From Ancylobacter crimeensis (lineage in GTDB: Bacteria > Pseudomonadota > Alphaproteobacteria > Rhizobiales > Xanthobacteraceae): DNA of 64,000 bases. Positions 3,952 through 58,440 of the stretch are shown in pieces (positions within the stretch are counted from its first letter, which is position 1; the number at the start of each line of letters is the position of its first letter). Made by a program: the position numbers and the translations under genes. The stretch spans positions 1-64,000 of the forward strand of contig NZ_JALKCH010000007.1 of assembly GCF_023016805.1 (NCBI RefSeq), read 5' to 3'. The notes beneath the pieces are model-generated. The model saw nothing but the letters and a program-made list of their open reading frames with translations. It had not been told where the DNA came from and searched no databases.

Positions 3952-4245
3952 TCACACCGTCGGCAGCACCGCGACGCCGGCATCGTCATGGGCGGGCACC
4001 TCGGTCGCGCTTTCGGCCGGCAGGGTGTCGATGTGCGAGACGCGGGCGGCCAGCGGGCCCTCGCGACACAGTTCGACGATGGCATCGAGCGCCTCGCGCT
4101 GGCCCTCCAGCACGCACTCCACCCCGCCATCGGCGCGGTTGCGCACCCAGCCCGTCAGCTTCTTCGCACGCGCCTGCCCGGCGAGCCAGACGCGATAGCC
4201 GACGCCCTGCACATGCCCGTGAATCATCAGGCGAATCCGTGCCAT
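3952..4245 (-). CDS. acyP: Acylphosphatase
   Basis: A 97-residue cytosolic enzyme that hydrolyses carboxyl-phosphate bonds such as acetyl-phosphate or 1,3-bisphosphoglycerate. The phosphate-binding loop HVQGVGYR holds the catalytic R18. The catalytic N36 sits 18 residues later in GWVRNRADGGVECVLEG, the classical spacing. The ATG at 4245 follows a strong GGAGGAGGT ribosome-binding site. The length matches the family (90-100). A distant secreted relative with the same Arg/Asn spacing lies at 52508-53053. The gene converges with lipB and diverges from mgtE. Confidence 0.93.
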   Translation of the reverse strand: MARIRLMIHGHVQGVGYRVWLAGQARAKKLTGWVRNRADGGVECVLEGQREALDAIVELCREGPLAARVSHIDTLPAESATEVPAHDDAGVAVLPTV

Positions 4246-49471: not shown

Positions 49472-49522
49472 GGCTCGCCGCGTCCTCCCAACGCCGCATG
49501 GACGGCGCTGCGGCGGCGTGCT

Positions 49523-49555
49523 TTAGAGCGCGCGTTTTCTTTCAAGGCGCTTTCC
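49523..49555. repeat. TAGAGCG-type intergenic repeat
   Basis: TTAGAGCGCGCGTTTTC followed by an AGGCGC tail lies just before the EamA start. It shares the TAGAGC(G) head and the GCG(T)TTT run with the repeats at 29513 and 57073. Identity between copies is limited. Confidence 0.35.
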
Positions 49556-49556
49556 C

Positions 49557-50474
49557 GTGTTCCTGCCCGAGATCATGGCCGTCGGCGCGGCCGCCTGCAT
49601 CGCGCTCAGCGCCATGTTCATCAGCGAGCTGAACGGAAGGGTGGGGCTGTTCCGGCTCACCCGCTGGCAGATGAGCGCGGCCTTCCTGATGACCAGCGCG
49701 CTCGCCTCCCTGCTGGGAGGATGGGGCAGCATCAGCCTGCACGGCTTGGGGCTGCTGGCGGCGTCCAGCGTGTTCGGCATCATGATCGCCACGACGGCCT
49801 ATTTCGCCACGATCTATGCTGCCGGCCCGCGCGTGACGGCGCTGCTGTTCTCGCTGACCTCGCCCTTTGCGCTGGCGTTGGGCTATGTGGTGTTCGGCGA
49901 GACCGTGACATTGCGCCAAAGCGTGGGCGTCGTGCTGGTGTTGAGCGGGGTGGCGCTGGCGATTCGTGCGCGCAGCCCTGCGCCGGCGGTCGCCGCGGCG
50001 GCGGCGGATGCGCCGCCCGTGCCGGCCCCGGCGCGCGCGCGGGTGAACTGGACCGGCATCGGGCTCGGCGTGCTCACGGCCTTCGGGCAGGCGCTGGGCA
50101 ATCTGTTCGCGCGCCCGGCCATGGCGGCGGGGGTGGAGCCCTTCGCGGCGATGGCGGTGCGCTCGGGGCTCGCGGCAGCCTTTTTTCTGGCGCTGGCGGT
50201 GTTTCCCTTCGCCCGTACCGACCGCTCGCCGGTCAAGGCGCGCAATGTGGGCCTGGCGGTGACCTCCGCGCTGTTCGGCACCGTGCTCGGCATGTCGCTG
50301 CTGATGGCGGCGCTGCGCGAGGGCGATGTCGGGGTGATCTCGACACTGTCCTCCATGGCACCTGTCGTGATCCTGCCGATGGTGTGGATCCGCACGCGCA
50401 CCGCCCCGCGGCCGATGGCCTGGCTGGGGGCGGGCGTGGCGATCCTTGGCACGGCGTTCATCAGTATCGGGTGA
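49557..50474 (+). CDS. EamA/DMT family transporter
   Basis: A 305-residue membrane protein with ten helices in two EamA repeats: MFLPEIMAVGAAACIALSAM first, then RVTALLFSLTSPFALALGYV and VLVLSGVALAIRA at the end of the first half, and GIGLGVLTAFGQALGNLFAR with VISTLSSMAPVVILPMVWIR in the second. A GTG start at 49557. Members export amino acids or other metabolites; substrate unknown. It is the first of several accessory genes between gatA and gatB. Confidence 0.88.
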   Translation: MFLPEIMAVGAAACIALSAMFISELNGRVGLFRLTRWQMSAAFLMTSALASLLGGWGSISLHGLGLLAASSVFGIMIATTAYFATIYAAGPRVTALLFSLTSPFALALGYVVFGETVTLRQSVGVVLVLSGVALAIRARSPAPAVAAAAADAPPVPAPARARVNWTGIGLGVLTAFGQALGNLFARPAMAAGVEPFAAMAVRSGLAAAFFLALAVFPFARTDRSPVKARNVGLAVTSALFGTVLGMSLLMAALREGDVGVISTLSSMAPVVILPMVWIRTRTAPRPMAWLGAGVAILGTAFISIG

Positions 50475-50483
50475 GGCGGCGCC

Positions 50484-51050
50484 TCAGCCGCCGTGACGCT
50501 GCTCGCAGAAGCGGATGCGGTTGGCGAAGGGGTCGGTGACCTCCATCTGGATGCCCCAGTCCAAGCGGTCGAGCCCGGGACGCATCTGCGGGTTATCCTT
50601 CGCCGTCAGTTCGGCGTGGAACAGGGCGATCTGCTCCATGCCGACGAACACGGTCGCGCCCGGGGTGGCGTCGCCGTGATGGGCGGACAGATGCAGCAGC
50701 AGTCCGGCCCGCGAGACCTGCGCATAGAGCGGCGCATCGGGGGCGAAGCGATGCTCCCAGTCCAGCCGGAAGCCGAGAAAATCCAGATAGAAGGCACGGG
50801 CCTTCGCCTCGTCGAAGATGCGCAGCACCGGGCAGGTGCGCAGGAAGCGCGGGGCGCCGGGCGGTACTTGCTCCGGCACCAGTGCGGCGAGGTGGTTCCA
50901 GTCCCGGCAGCCGAACTGGCGGGCGACGAGATCGAGGGCCTGGCCGTGGGCGATGGCGATGCCGCGCTCGGCCAGCGTGCCGCGCAGAACGGCGGCGAGG
51001 GCCTTGGCGTCGTCGCGCGAGGCGACATGGGTGTTCAGGGGTGGCGGCAT
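50484..51050 (-). CDS. Glyoxalase-superfamily (VOC) protein with N-terminal DNA-binding-like region
   Basis: A 188-residue protein. The N-terminal ~60 residues (DDAKALAAVLRGTLAERGIA, then LDLVARQFGCRDWNHLAALV) match a small conserved domain seen ahead of VOC folds. The C-terminal VOC/glyoxalase domain has CPVLRIFDEAKARAFYLDFL, AGLLLHLSAHHGDATPGATV and MEVTDPFANRIRFCEQ. Often annotated as bleomycin-resistance-like. The metal ligands are not obvious enough to assign an activity. Start at 51050 is preferred over 51107. Confidence 0.85.
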   Translation of the reverse strand: MPPPLNTHVASRDDAKALAAVLRGTLAERGIAIAHGQALDLVARQFGCRDWNHLAALVPEQVPPGAPRFLRTCPVLRIFDEAKARAFYLDFLGFRLDWEHRFAPDAPLYAQVSRAGLLLHLSAHHGDATPGATVFVGMEQIALFHAELTAKDNPQMRPGLDRLDWGIQMEVTDPFANRIRFCEQRHGG

Positions 51051-51241
51051 GGTGCGTTCCGCGTCTGCGGCGGTGCGGGAGGTCAGTGCTCGCATTGCTG
51101 ACGGCATCGCCGGTGGGACGGGGACGACGACTGGGGGAATGTGGTGCGTTCACCATGCCCGGAAGGGCGCGAGCGGCCGGCCGCACCAGCCAAGCCTGAC
51201 GGTAGGCAGGGCTGGCGGGAGGGTCAAGCGCGGCGCACGGT

Positions 51242-51289
51242 CGTGGCCGGCGATGCCGGCACGTTTCGTCTCCGTGGCCGGCGATGCCG
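51242..51289 (+). repeat. Short direct repeat
   Basis: CGTGGCCGGCGATGCC occurs at 51242-51257 and 51273-51288, a 31-bp period. A related TATGCCGGCACCC lies at the end of the downstream gene. It may be part of a local GC-rich palindrome cluster. Confidence 0.35.
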
Positions 51290-51337
51290 CGGGTTGCGCC
51301 GTGATCGGGCCGGCCTGTGCCGCGCGGTCTTTACCGG

Positions 51338-52291
51338 CTATGCCGGCACCCAGTCGCGGAACGTCGCGAGGTCGATATTGCCGCCGGAGAGCATCACCCC
51401 GGCGCGCCGGCCCCGAAGCGTCGCCCTGTCCTGAAGCAGCGCGGCGAGCGCGGCGGCGCCGGCCCCTTCCGCGAGATTGTGGGTGTCGGTCCAATAGATG
51501 CGGATCGCCTGCGCGATCGCTTCCTCGCTCACCGTCACCACCCGCTCGGCGCCCTCGAGCATGATGGCGAGCGCGTCGGGCGAGGGCACACGGACGGCGA
51601 GGCCGTCGGCCCGGGTGTCGGCGTGCGCGCTCTCGACCGGGCGGCCGGCGGCGAAGGACAACGCATAGGCCGGTGCACCCTCGGCCTGCACCCCGACGAT
51701 GCGGGTGGGCAGCCCCAGCAGGTCGCGCACCAGGATCGCCGCGCAGATGCCCGAGCCGAGGCCGATCGGCACATAGAGCACGTCGAGCGGCGGGGCGCCG
51801 CGGAACAGTTCCAGCGCCGCGGTGGCGACGCCGAGAACGAGATCGCGGTGGAAGGAGGGGGCGAAGGTCAGGCCGTCGCTCCGCGCCAGCGCCATGGCGT
51901 GGGAGCGCGCGGCGTCGAAATCCGCGCCGTGCTCGATGAGCCGGGCGCCGAGGGCGGCCATGGCGGCATTCTTCTCGGCGCTGTTGCCCTGTGGCACGAC
52001 GATGGTGACCGGGATGCCGACCCGCCGCCCGGCATAGGCGAGCGACTGGCCGTGATTGCCGCGGGTGGCGGAGATGATGCCGGCCTCCGCCCCGCCCTGC
52101 CGGGCCAGCCGATCCAGATGCACCAGCCCGCCGCGCACCTTGAAGGCGCCGGTCGGGGTGTGGTTCTCGTGCTTTACCCAAACCTCCGTCCCGGCGCGGG
52201 CGCCGAGCAGCGGCCACGCATAATGCGGGGTGCCGGGAAAGGCGGCGCGGACGAGGGCGTGGGCGGCTTCGAGCTCGGCAAGCGTGAACAT
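51338..52291 (-). CDS. PLP-dependent threonine/serine dehydratase family protein
   Basis: A 317-residue fold-type II PLP enzyme. The Schiff-base lysine is in NHTPTGAFKVRGGLVHLDRL, the cofactor phosphate loop is LGSGICAAILVRDL, and substrate contacts are in SATRGNHGQSLAYAG. It resembles threonine dehydratase and the EutB-like dehydratases of ectoine breakdown, but no other ectoine-degradation genes are near, so a substrate cannot be named. Start at 52291 (MFTLAELEAAH) fits the family; upstream codons in frame are Pro/Arg-rich. Confidence 0.88.
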   Translation of the reverse strand: MFTLAELEAAHALVRAAFPGTPHYAWPLLGARAGTEVWVKHENHTPTGAFKVRGGLVHLDRLARQGGAEAGIISATRGNHGQSLAYAGRRVGIPVTIVVPQGNSAEKNAAMAALGARLIEHGADFDAARSHAMALARSDGLTFAPSFHRDLVLGVATAALELFRGAPPLDVLYVPIGLGSGICAAILVRDLLGLPTRIVGVQAEGAPAYALSFAAGRPVESAHADTRADGLAVRVPSPDALAIMLEGAERVVTVSEEAIAQAIRIYWTDTHNLAEGAGAAALAALLQDRATLRGRRAGVMLSGGNIDLATFRDWVPA

Positions 52292-52507
52292 GCGGGGGTC
52301 CGTGAGATGCGGGGCAGGCGAGGGGTCATCCTGCCGCGCCGGGCCACGACGAGCGCCCCGGAACGGCACGGGCGAGCGGGAGGGTGCCGGCGCCTTCACA
52401 GAACCGTCAAGGAAGGCTCCTAGCTTCCCGGGCCGTCCGTCGGGTCTGCCCCTTCGGGAAGCGGGCTTGTCGGCGCGTCATTGCGGAGGATTTCATCTGT
52501 GAGGCGA

Positions 52508-53053
52508 TCAATCGTCCGGCCCGAGCTTGCGGAGGTCGTCATCCGCCAGCGTGGTCCTGAGGATCGCGTGCCAGGCGTTCCTTGCCTGCGCCATCGGGAT
52601 GGTTTCGTCCACGCTCCTGACCGTGAAGACGAGTGTGTAGGGTTGCGTGATGTTCCGGCTCGTCGACGTCCAGTCGAAGACCGTGAACGTGCCGAGCGCC
52701 GGGTCGACGGCGGTCGGTTCCGTCGCGACCTTCACATCGGACGATGTCCGCGTGCCATCGCGGATGGTTTCGAGCGCCTTATCGATCCGGCCCGGCCGGC
52801 CCTGAAGCGTGAATTCCACACTGCTGTCCGGGTGGTTCCGGGCCGTGCCCGCGAGATTGTGCTTGATGGCCTGCTTCATCACCATCGCCCGGAAGCCGAC
52901 CTTCTGGACATTGCCGGTGACGATGCCGCGTACCGCGACGATGCCGGGCGGCGCGGCAATGCCGATCGGAGCGGTCTGCGCCGGCGCGCCCGCGGACAGG
53001 ATGGCGATGGCGGACAGGGCCGCCCGGCAGAGAGGCGAGGGGATGCGCGCCAT
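52508..53053 (-). CDS. Exported acylphosphatase-fold protein with C-terminal extension
   Basis: A 181-residue protein. A signal peptide (RAALSAIAILSAGAPAQTAP) is followed by an acylphosphatase-like domain (~38-112). The phosphate loop is GNVQKVGFRAM with catalytic R55, and N73 in TARNHPDSSVEF keeps the classical 18-residue spacing found in the cytosolic acylphosphatase at 3952. The last ~70 residues (FDWTSTSRNITQPYTLVFTV and on) are an extension of unknown role. Catalytic residues are intact, so activity in the periplasm is possible. It is divergent from the phytase-like esterase gene and shares an intergenic region with it. Confidence 0.75.
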   Translation of the reverse strand: MARIPSPLCRAALSAIAILSAGAPAQTAPIGIAAPPGIVAVRGIVTGNVQKVGFRAMVMKQAIKHNLAGTARNHPDSSVEFTLQGRPGRIDKALETIRDGTRTSSDVKVATEPTAVDPALGTFTVFDWTSTSRNITQPYTLVFTVRSVDETIPMAQARNAWHAILRTTLADDDLRKLGPDD

Positions 53054-53303
53054 GGCGGCCGGTCCTCGGTGAAGGCATTGCGAATGCTACGCAGCGGAAA
53101 GAGAAGGTGCTGCTGCGCGGAGATCTTCCCGAGCAAACCGGCCGAATTGTGGGCTTTCGCACGAACACGGCAGGTTGATGGGAAGAACGGCTGAAGATGA
53201 CGTCGGGCGCCTCCGGCGGTCGATCGGGCTGGCAGCGTCCTGACAGTGTTCTGCGCGGTGTCTCGGCGCCGCCCCTATTTGTTCCTGCTGGAGATCACAC
53301 CTC

Positions 53304-54770
53304 ATGAAAATGCTGCCGCTCCTGCGTGCGCGTGCCGCCCGCCGCCCCTCTGCCACATGCCGAATCTTGGTGGCCGGCACTGCCGCGCTGCTGCTCGCCG
53401 GGGGCCTCGTGCCCGCCGCGCAGGCGCAGTCGCTGCCGGTCAATAAGGGGCTTGTCGCCATGGGCCGCCTGCCCGGCAGCCTGCGCGACAGCTTCGGCGA
53501 GACCTTCGGCTCCGGCTCCGGCATGGCGACGATCGACTGGCAGAAGACCCCGACCGGATATGCCGGCTCGTTCCTGCTGCTGCCGGACCGCGGCTACAAT
53601 GTCGAGGGCACGACCGACTACAGCACGCGCGTCAACACCCTCTCCGTCGCCTTCGACATGCCGGAGGACGGCACGGCGGCCCAGGCGGCGCTGAAGCTGG
53701 ACGGCACCTTCCTTTTGACCGACACCACCGGCAAGCCGCTGACCGGGCTGGACCCGGTGACCATCAACACCGCCAACGGCACGCCGCAGGGCGGCCCCGG
53801 CCTGCCCGGCGCGGTGACCGGCGCGGTGAGCCTCGATCCCGAGGCGATCGTGCGCCTGCCCGACGGCTCGCTGATGATCTCGGATGAATACGGCCCGGCG
53901 ATCTACCATTTCTCCGCTGAGGGCAAGATGCTCTCGGCGACCCTGCCGCCGCAGGCCTTCCTGCCGATGCGCAAGGGCAAGCTCGACTTCTCCTCCGACA
54001 ATCCCGGCCCCGGCGCGCCGCATCCCGACCCGAAGGATCCCGACACCGGGCGGCAGAACAATCAGGGTTTCGAGGGCATGGCCTATGACCCGGCCACGAA
54101 GCAGTTGACCGTCGTGCTGCAGAGCGCGACCCGGCAGGACGGCGGCGACAGGAAGTCCACCCGGCAGGACAGCCGCGCGCTCGTCTATGACGCCGCCGAT
54201 CCCGACCATCTGAAGCTCACGGCCGAATATGTCGTGCCGCTGCCGGTGTTCAAGGACGACGACAAGACGCTGGTCGCGGCGCAGAGCGAACTGACCGCGC
54301 TGGGCGACGGCCGCTTCCTGCTGCTCTCGCGCGACAGCAACAATGGCTGGGGCGTGAAGGGCGCGACGTCGCTCTATCGCCGGGTCGACCTGCTCGATCT
54401 CAACGGCGCCACCAACATCGCCGGCACCCGCTTCGACGGCCTAGAGCCGGTCGCGCCCAAGGGCGTGCTCGACGCCGCCGTGACCCCGGCCCGCCTCGCC
54501 GGGCCGGTGGTGGACATCAACGACAATGCCCAGCTCGCCCGGGTCGGCCTGCACAATGGCGAGCCCCACGACCCCACCGACCTGCCGGAGAAGTGGGAAT
54601 CCATGGCCATCGTGCCCGCGCTCGACCCCGCCAACCCGAAGGACGTGTTCCTGCTGGTGGCGAACGACAACGACTTCCTGACGAAGACCGGCCATCAGGC
54701 CGGGGCCGACTACGACGCCGGCGCGGATGTCGACACCCTCGTGCTGGTGTATCGCCTGACGCTGCCGTGA
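53304..54770 (+). CDS. Secreted esterase-like activity of phytase family protein
   Basis: A 488-residue exported protein. A long signal region (GTAALLLAGGLVPAAQAQ) precedes the esterase-like phytase domain (PF13449 type): FLLLPDRGYNVEGTTDYS, VRLPDGSLMISDEYGPAIYH, and NNQGFEGMAYDPATKQLTVV. A late MAIVPALDPANPKDVFLLVA segment precedes the C-terminus. The beta-propeller fold is used by phytases and related esterases. Phosphate-ester hydrolysis is likely but substrate unproven. CTGGAGATC lies before the ATG at 53304. Confidence 0.88.
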   Translation: MKMLPLLRARAARRPSATCRILVAGTAALLLAGGLVPAAQAQSLPVNKGLVAMGRLPGSLRDSFGETFGSGSGMATIDWQKTPTGYAGSFLLLPDRGYNVEGTTDYSTRVNTLSVAFDMPEDGTAAQAALKLDGTFLLTDTTGKPLTGLDPVTINTANGTPQGGPGLPGAVTGAVSLDPEAIVRLPDGSLMISDEYGPAIYHFSAEGKMLSATLPPQAFLPMRKGKLDFSSDNPGPGAPHPDPKDPDTGRQNNQGFEGMAYDPATKQLTVVLQSATRQDGGDRKSTRQDSRALVYDAADPDHLKLTAEYVVPLPVFKDDDKTLVAAQSELTALGDGRFLLLSRDSNNGWGVKGATSLYRRVDLLDLNGATNIAGTRFDGLEPVAPKGVLDAAVTPARLAGPVVDINDNAQLARVGLHNGEPHDPTDLPEKWESMAIVPALDPANPKDVFLLVANDNDFLTKTGHQAGADYDAGADVDTLVLVYRLTLP

Positions 54771-57199: not shown

Positions 57200-57673
57200 T
57201 TACGGCAGGCATTTGGCCATGAAGACGTGCCAGGCCTTGGCGCCCTTCAGGTCGTTGGCGGCCTTGTAGGCCTTCCACTGCTCGTTGCAGGCCTTGGTGG
57301 CCTGCCGGTCGGCGGCCACCTCAGCGCGGGGCATGCGCGTCGTCTTCTTCGGCGCATCGGAATCGGCGGTGGCGGGCTTGGCCGGCGTCGGCGCGGCGTC
57401 GGCCGGCTTTGCTGCGGGAGCTGTGGTGCTCGTCGAGGTGGAGGTCGAAGCCTTGCCCTCGGAAAGGCACTGTTTCGAGAAATCGCGATAGACCATGTCG
57501 CCGGTCTGATTCTTCGCCTTCATGTCGTTCCAGCGCGTCGCGCATTCCTGAATCGTGGCGGCTTTGGCCGGGGTGGCGGCAAAGGCCGCGGCGGCGAGAA
57601 GGACGGCGAGGGCGGGTGTGCGCCAGGCCCGAAGATCGGGGCGAATCTCGGCTCGAAGAATGCTGTTCGTCAT
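57200..57673 (-). CDS. Secreted protein with two Cys-Trp-Phe-Cys repeats (PsiF-like)
   Basis: A 157-residue exported protein. A signal peptide (TPALAVLLAAAAFAATPAKA) leads to repeat 1 (C44-x3-W ... C69: CATRWNDMKAKNQTGDM then VYRDFSKQCL). A Ser/Thr/Ala/Pro linker (SEGKASTSTSTSTTAPAAKP and on) separates it from repeat 2 at the C-terminus (CNEQWKAYKAANDLKGAKAW then HVFMAKCL). The two repeats share the pattern C-x3-W, an internal Asn/Lys segment, F-x3-C. Each pair probably forms a disulfide hairpin. The next gene has a third copy. Function unknown. Confidence 0.75.
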   Translation of the reverse strand: MTNSILRAEIRPDLRAWRTPALAVLLAAAAFAATPAKAATIQECATRWNDMKAKNQTGDMVYRDFSKQCLSEGKASTSTSTSTTAPAAKPADAAPTPAKPATADSDAPKKTTRMPRAEVAADRQATKACNEQWKAYKAANDLKGAKAWHVFMAKCLP

Positions 57674-57684
57674 GTGACCTCTCA

Positions 57685-58122
57685 TCATCGCATGCAACTC
57701 ATCATGAACTGATGCCATTTCTTGGCGGCCTTGCTGTTGCCGCCGTTCTCCGCGATCTTGGCGCGCCATTGCGCCGTGCAGGCCTGCTCCTTTGCCGGAT
57801 CGAGGCCGGACACGCTGCCGGGCGCCACGGCGAGCGAAGCCGGCGCGAGCGGCGCGCCGTTGCCGTCGGGATCGCTGCTGTCCTTGCCGGAGCGGCCCGA
57901 TTTGCCACCGCCCCCACCGTGACCGCCCCCGCCTCCACCACCCTTGGCAAGCAGGATGGGCGCGGCGGTTGGCGCGGCCGGCGCCTGATCGACGATCTTC
58001 AGGGATGCGGGAGGTTCCGGCGCCACGGCGACGGCGGCGGAAAAGGCCGGCGCAGCGGCGAGCAAAAGAAACGCCAGCGCGGCGGAAGCGCGGCACGGGC
58101 GCAAGCCAACATTCCCCAGCAT
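57685..58122 (-). CDS. Secreted glycine-rich protein with one Cys-Trp-Phe-Cys repeat
   Basis: A 145-residue exported protein. A signal peptide (SAALAFLLLAAAPAFSAAVA) is followed by a Pro/Ala stretch, a glycine run (GGGGGGGHGGGGGKSGRSGK), and a C-terminal CTAQWRAKIAENGGNSKAAK plus KWHQFMMSCM module like the repeats in its downstream neighbour. It starts 11 bp upstream of that gene's start region on the same strand, so the two form a unit. Start at 58122 is chosen because the signal peptide begins there. Function unknown. Confidence 0.7.
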   Translation of the reverse strand: MLGNVGLRPCRASAALAFLLLAAAPAFSAAVAVAPEPPASLKIVDQAPAAPTAAPILLAKGGGGGGGHGGGGGKSGRSGKDSSDPDGNGAPLAPASLAVAPGSVSGLDPAKEQACTAQWRAKIAENGGNSKAAKKWHQFMMSCMR

Positions 58123-58440
58123 GGAAGCGAACCTTTGCGGCTGTCCCGCGGCCTGGGAAGCGCACGGCCTTCCGTCGCCCCGCGAGGCAACGTTCCGACC
58201 CTGCTGCCGCCCCCCGCGTGCAGAGATCTGCCAAAAACATCCGCCCGGCACGGGGAGGCTGTCAATAGGCACGGAATGGGCCGCACGGGTGCCTGCGCCG
58301 TCGTGTGGAAGGGGATCGGCCCCGGCTCTCCGCCGCTTCCGGCGCGGGGCGTGGCTTGCCAGCCGCCCCGCCGCGGCCTACCTCTTGTCACCAGGGTGCC
58401 GCGGTGCACCGGACCGAGGCGATTTGAAGGCTAGAACAGC
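58123..58440. other. Divergent intergenic region between secreted-protein genes and a GST
   Basis: 318 bases. No gene and no recognisable structured element apart from the GST ribosome-binding site region (GAAGG at 58426-58430). The two secreted-protein genes and the GST share this upstream space. Confidence 0.5.

Follow-up and report, generated by a model that had tools for sequence, protein, structure and literature searches.

The 64,000 nt stretch of Ancylobacter crimeensis DNA analyzed here (positions 1 to 64,000 of contig NZ_JALKCH010000007.1, hereafter the window) carries a gene for a 181 residue protein that is a real, rare and probably exported variant of the acylphosphatase fold. The reading that we favor, at a probability of roughly 0.4, is that this protein represents an uncommon, exported branch of the acylphosphatase family, a periplasmic hydrolase whose pocket would be altered by its C-terminal tail and whose substrate is probably not the usual acyl phosphate. 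What acylphosphatase does in bacterial physiology is poorly defined. The gene was taken as real because four other genomes encode proteins that are 51-56% identical to its product over the alignment (54, 51, 56 and 53%). All five proteins align over both the domain and the tail. The coordinates of the gene, its parts and its surroundings are given in Table 1.

Table 1. Features of the acylphosphatase-fold gene and its surroundings in the window
Feature	Window position	Strand	Basis
Gene for 181 residue acylphosphatase-fold protein, putatively exported	52508..53053	(-)	Open reading frame, Pfam match, homologues
N-terminus resembling a signal peptide, about residues 1-25	52979..53053	(-)	Hydropathy test; cleavage site placed by eye behind APA
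Acylphosphatase fold, residues about 37-127 (Pfam match 42-113)	52673..52945	(-)	Pfam and predicted structure
Phosphate cradle Q50-K-V-G-F-R55, including catalytic Arg55; Lys replaces the usual Gly after Gln	52889..52906	(-)	Sequence; cradle as described in an excerpt of PMC8147672
Asn73, water-orienting residue of acylphosphatases, 18 after Arg55	52835..52837	(-)	Sequence; role from an excerpt of PMC8147672
C-terminal extension, residues 128-181: W-T-S-[TS]-S-R, further strand, helix, short end helix	52511..52672	(-)	Alignment and model
Ordinary cytosolic acylphosphatase of the same genome (comparison)	3952..4245	(-)	PF00708 match, tree
Divergent phytase-like esterase (PF13449), a neighbor here, not a conserved partner	53304..54770	(+)	Pfam and flank comparison
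Interval missing between the same neighbors in two congeners (G015, G018), with genes for an EamA transporter, a glyoxalase-like protein, a PALP enzyme and the acylphosphatase-fold protein	49472..53303		

The acylphosphatase family, PF00708, matched residues 42-113 of the protein with an E value of 6.5e-18 and 65.2 bits against a cut-off of 22.5, and was the only Pfam family to match at E 0.001. The genome has two PF00708 matches, this protein and the plain cytosolic acylphosphatase near position 4000, whose flanking genes we take to resemble lipB and mgtE. None of the NCBIfam acylphosphatase models exceeded its cut-off among the best 25 of 29 matched models, the top score among those listed being 60 bits against a cut-off of 97 (PRK14445.1). 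The best AlphaFold2 model, calculated from an input alignment of four sequences and the sole confident one of five, had a mean pLDDT of 84.0 and a pTM of 0.79, while the other four had mean pLDDT values of 55.1-65.9. In this model the strands and helices are predicted to follow the order found in acylphosphatase, and then come an extra strand (model residues 109-118) and two helices (128-142 and 145-149; 26 is added to a model residue number to give the protein residue number). Fold alignment of the model to solved acylphosphatases gave Z scores of up to 10.6, with the top three at an rmsd of 2.1-2.4 over 87-89 residues; for the E. coli acylphosphatase 9sv1, VIA-align gave Z 10.6 and an rmsd of 2.4 over 89 residues. 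A Foldseek search of the PDB returned an acylphosphatase match at E 6.6e-7, and its first 38 matches were acylphosphatases or HypF, apart from one designed protein (6cbu); the name of one match, 1ulr, came from a separate search. A fold search of BFVD gave nothing at E up to 0.001. An earlier note on this DNA, made from the sequence, had proposed an acylphosphatase fold, and the Pfam match together with the structure prediction (Z 10.6) bears this out.

A scan for close relatives in a collection with one genome per species (84,980 species) returned three loci, one in Lichenifustis flavocetrariae (L033) and two in Hyphomicrobiales metagenome genomes (L034 and L035), and a profile search added a fourth, L036 in genome G233. 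At an E cut-off of 1e-10, two of the 397 genomes searched in the order had full-length copies, one of the two being the window's own, and four further genomes of the 397 had domain-only matches; no full-length copy was found elsewhere in 385 genomes of the class or 299 of the phylum (cut-off 1e-12 for both). With the protein itself as query, the 29 other genomes of the window's genus yielded no clear full-length match; the lone long congener alignment (G025, residues 14-174, 29%) crosses a stop and sits on an ordinary acylphosphatase. At one further locus, L030 of G030, tblastn matched residues 29-147 at 32% identity (E 8.1e-5) and the acylphosphatase profile found no domain. Both in Lichenifustis flavocetrariae (L042, G432) and in G233 (L145), the leader-bearing protein was the sole PF00708 match found in the genome. 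Twelve plasmid records matched, none over 80% of the protein, one phage record matched over the domain only, and the 57 pattern matches among IMG/VR viral contigs included no relative; as none of these three sources held a full-length match, a phage or plasmid origin of the gene was rejected. The cytosolic acylphosphatase likewise had no relative among the viral contigs.

A tree was built from 120 domains over 76 columns, with a bootstrap that had not settled and many forks without resolution. The five members fell into one clade, with support of 100/100 and a very long stem of 1.79 changes per column. The cytosolic acylphosphatase of the window genome grouped with those of its congeners, in a different clade, and a recent duplication of the cytosolic gene was therefore rejected as the source of the 181 residue protein. 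Near the five-member clade lay HypF domains and L004, an ordinary acylphosphatase from a different genus of the family, a nearness that may be due to long branches. The N-terminal domain of HypF has the same fold (3vth_A: Z 10.4, rmsd 2.6 over 95 residues) and has the Arg and the Asn at +18 in all four cases; however, solved HypF chains are about 750 residues long, whereas the protein described here has 181 residues and matches PF00708 only, and its clade stands apart from the four HypF rows. Eight other loci of the order, L136-L143 (in G183, G060, G150, G115, G180, G076, G169 and G122), encode acylphosphatase-domain proteins of the GDVNKPDFLHWICHR type that lack the Arg and the cradle. The seven distinct proteins among them group on a supported branch of their own, the stem of which measures 2.3 changes per column.

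The active site was compared with those of a survey set drawn from 150 genomes of the order, 100 of which had a PF00708 match; 30 loci and 59 further stretches were taken. Open frames of more than 500 residues (mostly HypF, as judged by length), one 22-position match and duplicates of rows already included were left out, and L144 from a congener and loci from other searches were added, so that congeners are over-represented. Loci repeating another's gene were dropped before the count (L062, for example, is the same gene as L039). Of 130 loci, 129 gave a domain (L030 gave none), and removal of 8 repeats among identical pairs left 121; HypF was recognized by a crude sequence rule, and some HypF-type rows may be misfiled.

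GNVQKVGFR occupies residues 47-55, and Arg55 and Asn73 are 18 residues apart, confirming the motif and spacing that had been described for this minus-strand frame. The same description had singled out the cytosolic protein as sharing this spacing. It does, at 18 residues likewise; the spacing is not distinctive, however, since an Asn at +18 is found in 104 of 104 non-HypF proteins with the motif outside the group, as it is in 4/4 HypF-type proteins and 5/5 group members. Its occurrence in both window proteins reflects a rule of the whole family and no special tie between them. The remaining 8 of the 121 surveyed domains are without the motif, seven being degenerate and one (L043) having a match that begins inside it.

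The catalytic residues had been called intact, and this holds in part: the Arg and the Asn are present, and the changes in the cradle, read from the sequence, speak against the label, as does the failure of the 25 listed NCBIfam models to pass their cut-offs. Outside the group, VQG occurs in 103 of the 104 non-HypF proteins of the survey that carry the motif, and VQS in the other, versus none of the five members, which have VQK (the window protein), DQG, DQK, DQQ and DQQ; the VGFR half of the cradle is invariant among them. A GW ahead of the Asn, found in 102 of 112 non-HypF proteins outside the group, is also absent from all five. An Asp just ahead of the cradle, together with loss of the cradle Gly, could make for weaker phosphate binding. 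In the P. horikoshii enzyme, according to an excerpt of PMC8147672, the cradle consists of Gln15-Arg20 with main-chain nitrogens directed at its center. Because the phosphate is held by main-chain nitrogens, the changes need not abolish binding.

These data bear on a different reading that we take seriously, namely that the protein is a non-enzymatic scaffold binding phosphate or another anion, with a cradle that no longer gives useful hydrolysis and a tail that binds a partner or covers the pocket. It would fit with the change of the cradle motif in all five members (an Asp in four), with the very long stem of the clade and with the NCBIfam result, and loss of catalysis has a precedent within the same order in the degenerate, Arg-less domains of L136-L143. 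Those proteins match PF00708 over the cut-off just as the window protein does, but they have lost the Arg and the cradle, while the five-member group keeps the Arg and half of the cradle, VGFR, unchanged. Because the Arg and Asn are kept in 5/5 members and the degenerate relatives lose the Arg, we put a hydrolase of altered specificity slightly ahead of a scaffold.

The N-terminus of the window protein, MARIPSPLCRAALSAIAILSAGAPA, is signal-like, with a best 10-residue mean hydropathy of 2.22 in a home-made test that considered starts 18-45 residues ahead of the domain; this is consistent with the signal peptide that had been predicted for it. Four of the five members passed the test (the window protein, L033, L034 and L036), as did two of 112 non-HypF proteins outside the group. 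One of these two, L004, passed by way of an unlikely TTG start and has an ATG nearer the domain, and the other, L013 (the same gene as L066), has a better-placed internal ATG behind GGGCGAGGG. The fifth member, L035, is without a leader and begins directly at the domain, with an ATG preceded by GGGAGGA, a good ribosome site, and a frame above the ATG that is not hydrophobic. Export is therefore not fixed in the group. Acyl phosphates are not known to occur in the periplasm. In a literature search of titles and abstract openings we recognized no account of an exported bacterial acylphosphatase.

The tail extends 68 residues past the Pfam match and about 54 past the end of the predicted acylphosphatase fold, and is present in all five clade members. 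Mean pairwise identity among the five is 59% in the tail, 66% in the domain and, over its alignable part, 17% in the leader; the tail thus appears to be under constraint. With E values of up to 10 allowed, Pfam gave nothing for the tails of all five, and a sequence search of PDB chains with the tail gave nothing either. The tail can accordingly be called novel, as had been suggested, since five genomes conserve it and it has neither a Pfam family nor a PDB sequence match. A profile of the tail run over 297 genomes of the order found only the window protein, the G233 protein and, in G095, a weak match over 33 positions (E 0.0036). Predicted alone, the tail gave a pLDDT of 64.2 and a pTM of 0.42, and because this model is poor the PDB fold search made with it (8 matches within E 10, of which none reached 0.001) is uninformative; matches in the fold search with the whole model scarcely reach the tail. 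The idea that the tail is an independent known domain was rejected on the lack of Pfam and PDB sequence matches, and we make no claim of a novel fold.

As described in an excerpt of PMC3057955, P. horikoshii acylphosphatase ends at Gly91, where its terminal carboxylate bridges the catalytic Arg20; according to the same paper, this bridge is absent from the mesophilic enzymes, though there too the chain ends with strand 5. The range of the model aligned with the P. horikoshii enzyme (1w2i, 2w4d) ends at model residue 101, or about Asp127, an approximate placement based on the range ends. This end point and the Gly91 chain end beside the Arg together suggest that the extension sets out close to the active-site rim. 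The Asp127 position is Asp in four of the five members and Gly in L035, and W-T-S-[TS]-S-R follows in all five. The tail may cap or reshape the pocket.

An improbable alternative is that the protein is an ordinary acylphosphatase, carrying out the usual reaction in whichever compartment it occupies, and that the leader and tail matter little. The full predicted fold, the Arg and Asn, the leaderless L035 and the occurrence of the protein as the sole PF00708 match found in Lichenifustis and G233 would all be consistent with it, but the tail is conserved among proteins 51-56% identical to that of the window, and the clade is separate from the genome's own cytosolic copy. In addition, none of the four other genomes of G233's genus has a full-length copy, and three of these four have no PF00708 match of any kind, so that the usual enzyme seems to be dispensable there.

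In the exported hydrolase that we favor, removal of the signal peptide would allow the protein to fold in the periplasm as an acylphosphatase plus a strand and a helix. Gln50-Arg55 would then bind a small ligand by its phosphate group, and Asn73 would position a water, so that the compound would be hydrolyzed as in acylphosphatase. The tail, leaving from the pocket rim beside the catalytic Arg, would narrow or re-shape the pocket, and the substrate would then probably be something other than the usual cytosolic acyl phosphate. A more specific proposal, which we regard as unlikely, is a periplasmic enzyme class in which a tail lid (Asp127 replacing the C-terminal carboxylate, followed by W-T-S-[TS]-S-R) and the changed cradle together confer a new substrate specificity.

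The gene lies divergent to that of the phytase-like esterase, with 250 bp between the two starts, and both N-termini look signal-like by eye. The earlier note had seen in this pair a hint of periplasmic phosphate metabolism and had suggested a survey for co-occurrence. Joint work of the two proteins in periplasmic phosphate scavenging is very improbable in light of that survey, as the divergent arrangement was found only here, beside the 3.8 kb interval. The esterase gene of congeners G015 and G018 comes close behind the small gene after gatA, where the window has 3.8 kb between them, and none of the four window interval proteins matched the G015 and G018 loci at E 1e-5. The esterase of these two congeners is 77% identical and lies next to the same genes, and genome-wide searches, made with just the acylphosphatase-fold protein of the four, showed no acylphosphatase of the exported kind in either. 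Among 40 other related genomes the esterase was found, at an E cut-off of 1e-20, in two, neither of which has the 181 residue protein; the genus commonly carries other PF13449 proteins, with 3-4 in each of the 5 congeners searched. The flanking stretches compared for the four other members (L033, L034, L035 and L054) held no relative of the esterase. PF13449 was present in two of the four other member genomes, far away or on another contig and in neither case adjacent; the two without a match are both metagenome genomes, which may be incomplete. Since the pair was seen only in this genome and the interval is missing in G015 and G018, the arrangement points to one insertion here, or to losses in the others, and not to a conserved module. 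A foreign composition of the interval was rejected, its GC and GC3 resembling those of its neighbors. Elsewhere in the window, two adjacent minus-strand open reading frames at 57200-58272 have similar Cys/Trp motifs at their ends (CNEQWKAYKAAND...KAWHVFMAKC and CTAQWRAKIAEN...KKWHQFMMSC) and look like tandem paralogues.

Compared with acylphosphatase as known from E. coli and P. horikoshii (EC 3.6.1.7, PF00708), the 181 residue protein has in common the predicted fold, the Arg with an Asn at +18 and the V-G-F-R sequence; its group differs in the signal-like N-terminus of four of its five members, the changed VQG, the lost GW and the conserved extension of about 54 residues. The rarity of the group limits the reach of the finding. 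Within that reach, a clade in which four of five members carry a signal-like leader, and in which the Arg and Asn are kept, the cradle is changed and a seemingly constrained tail is added at the pocket rim, offers a simple test of what the acylphosphatase fold may be used for beyond the hydrolysis of acyl phosphates.
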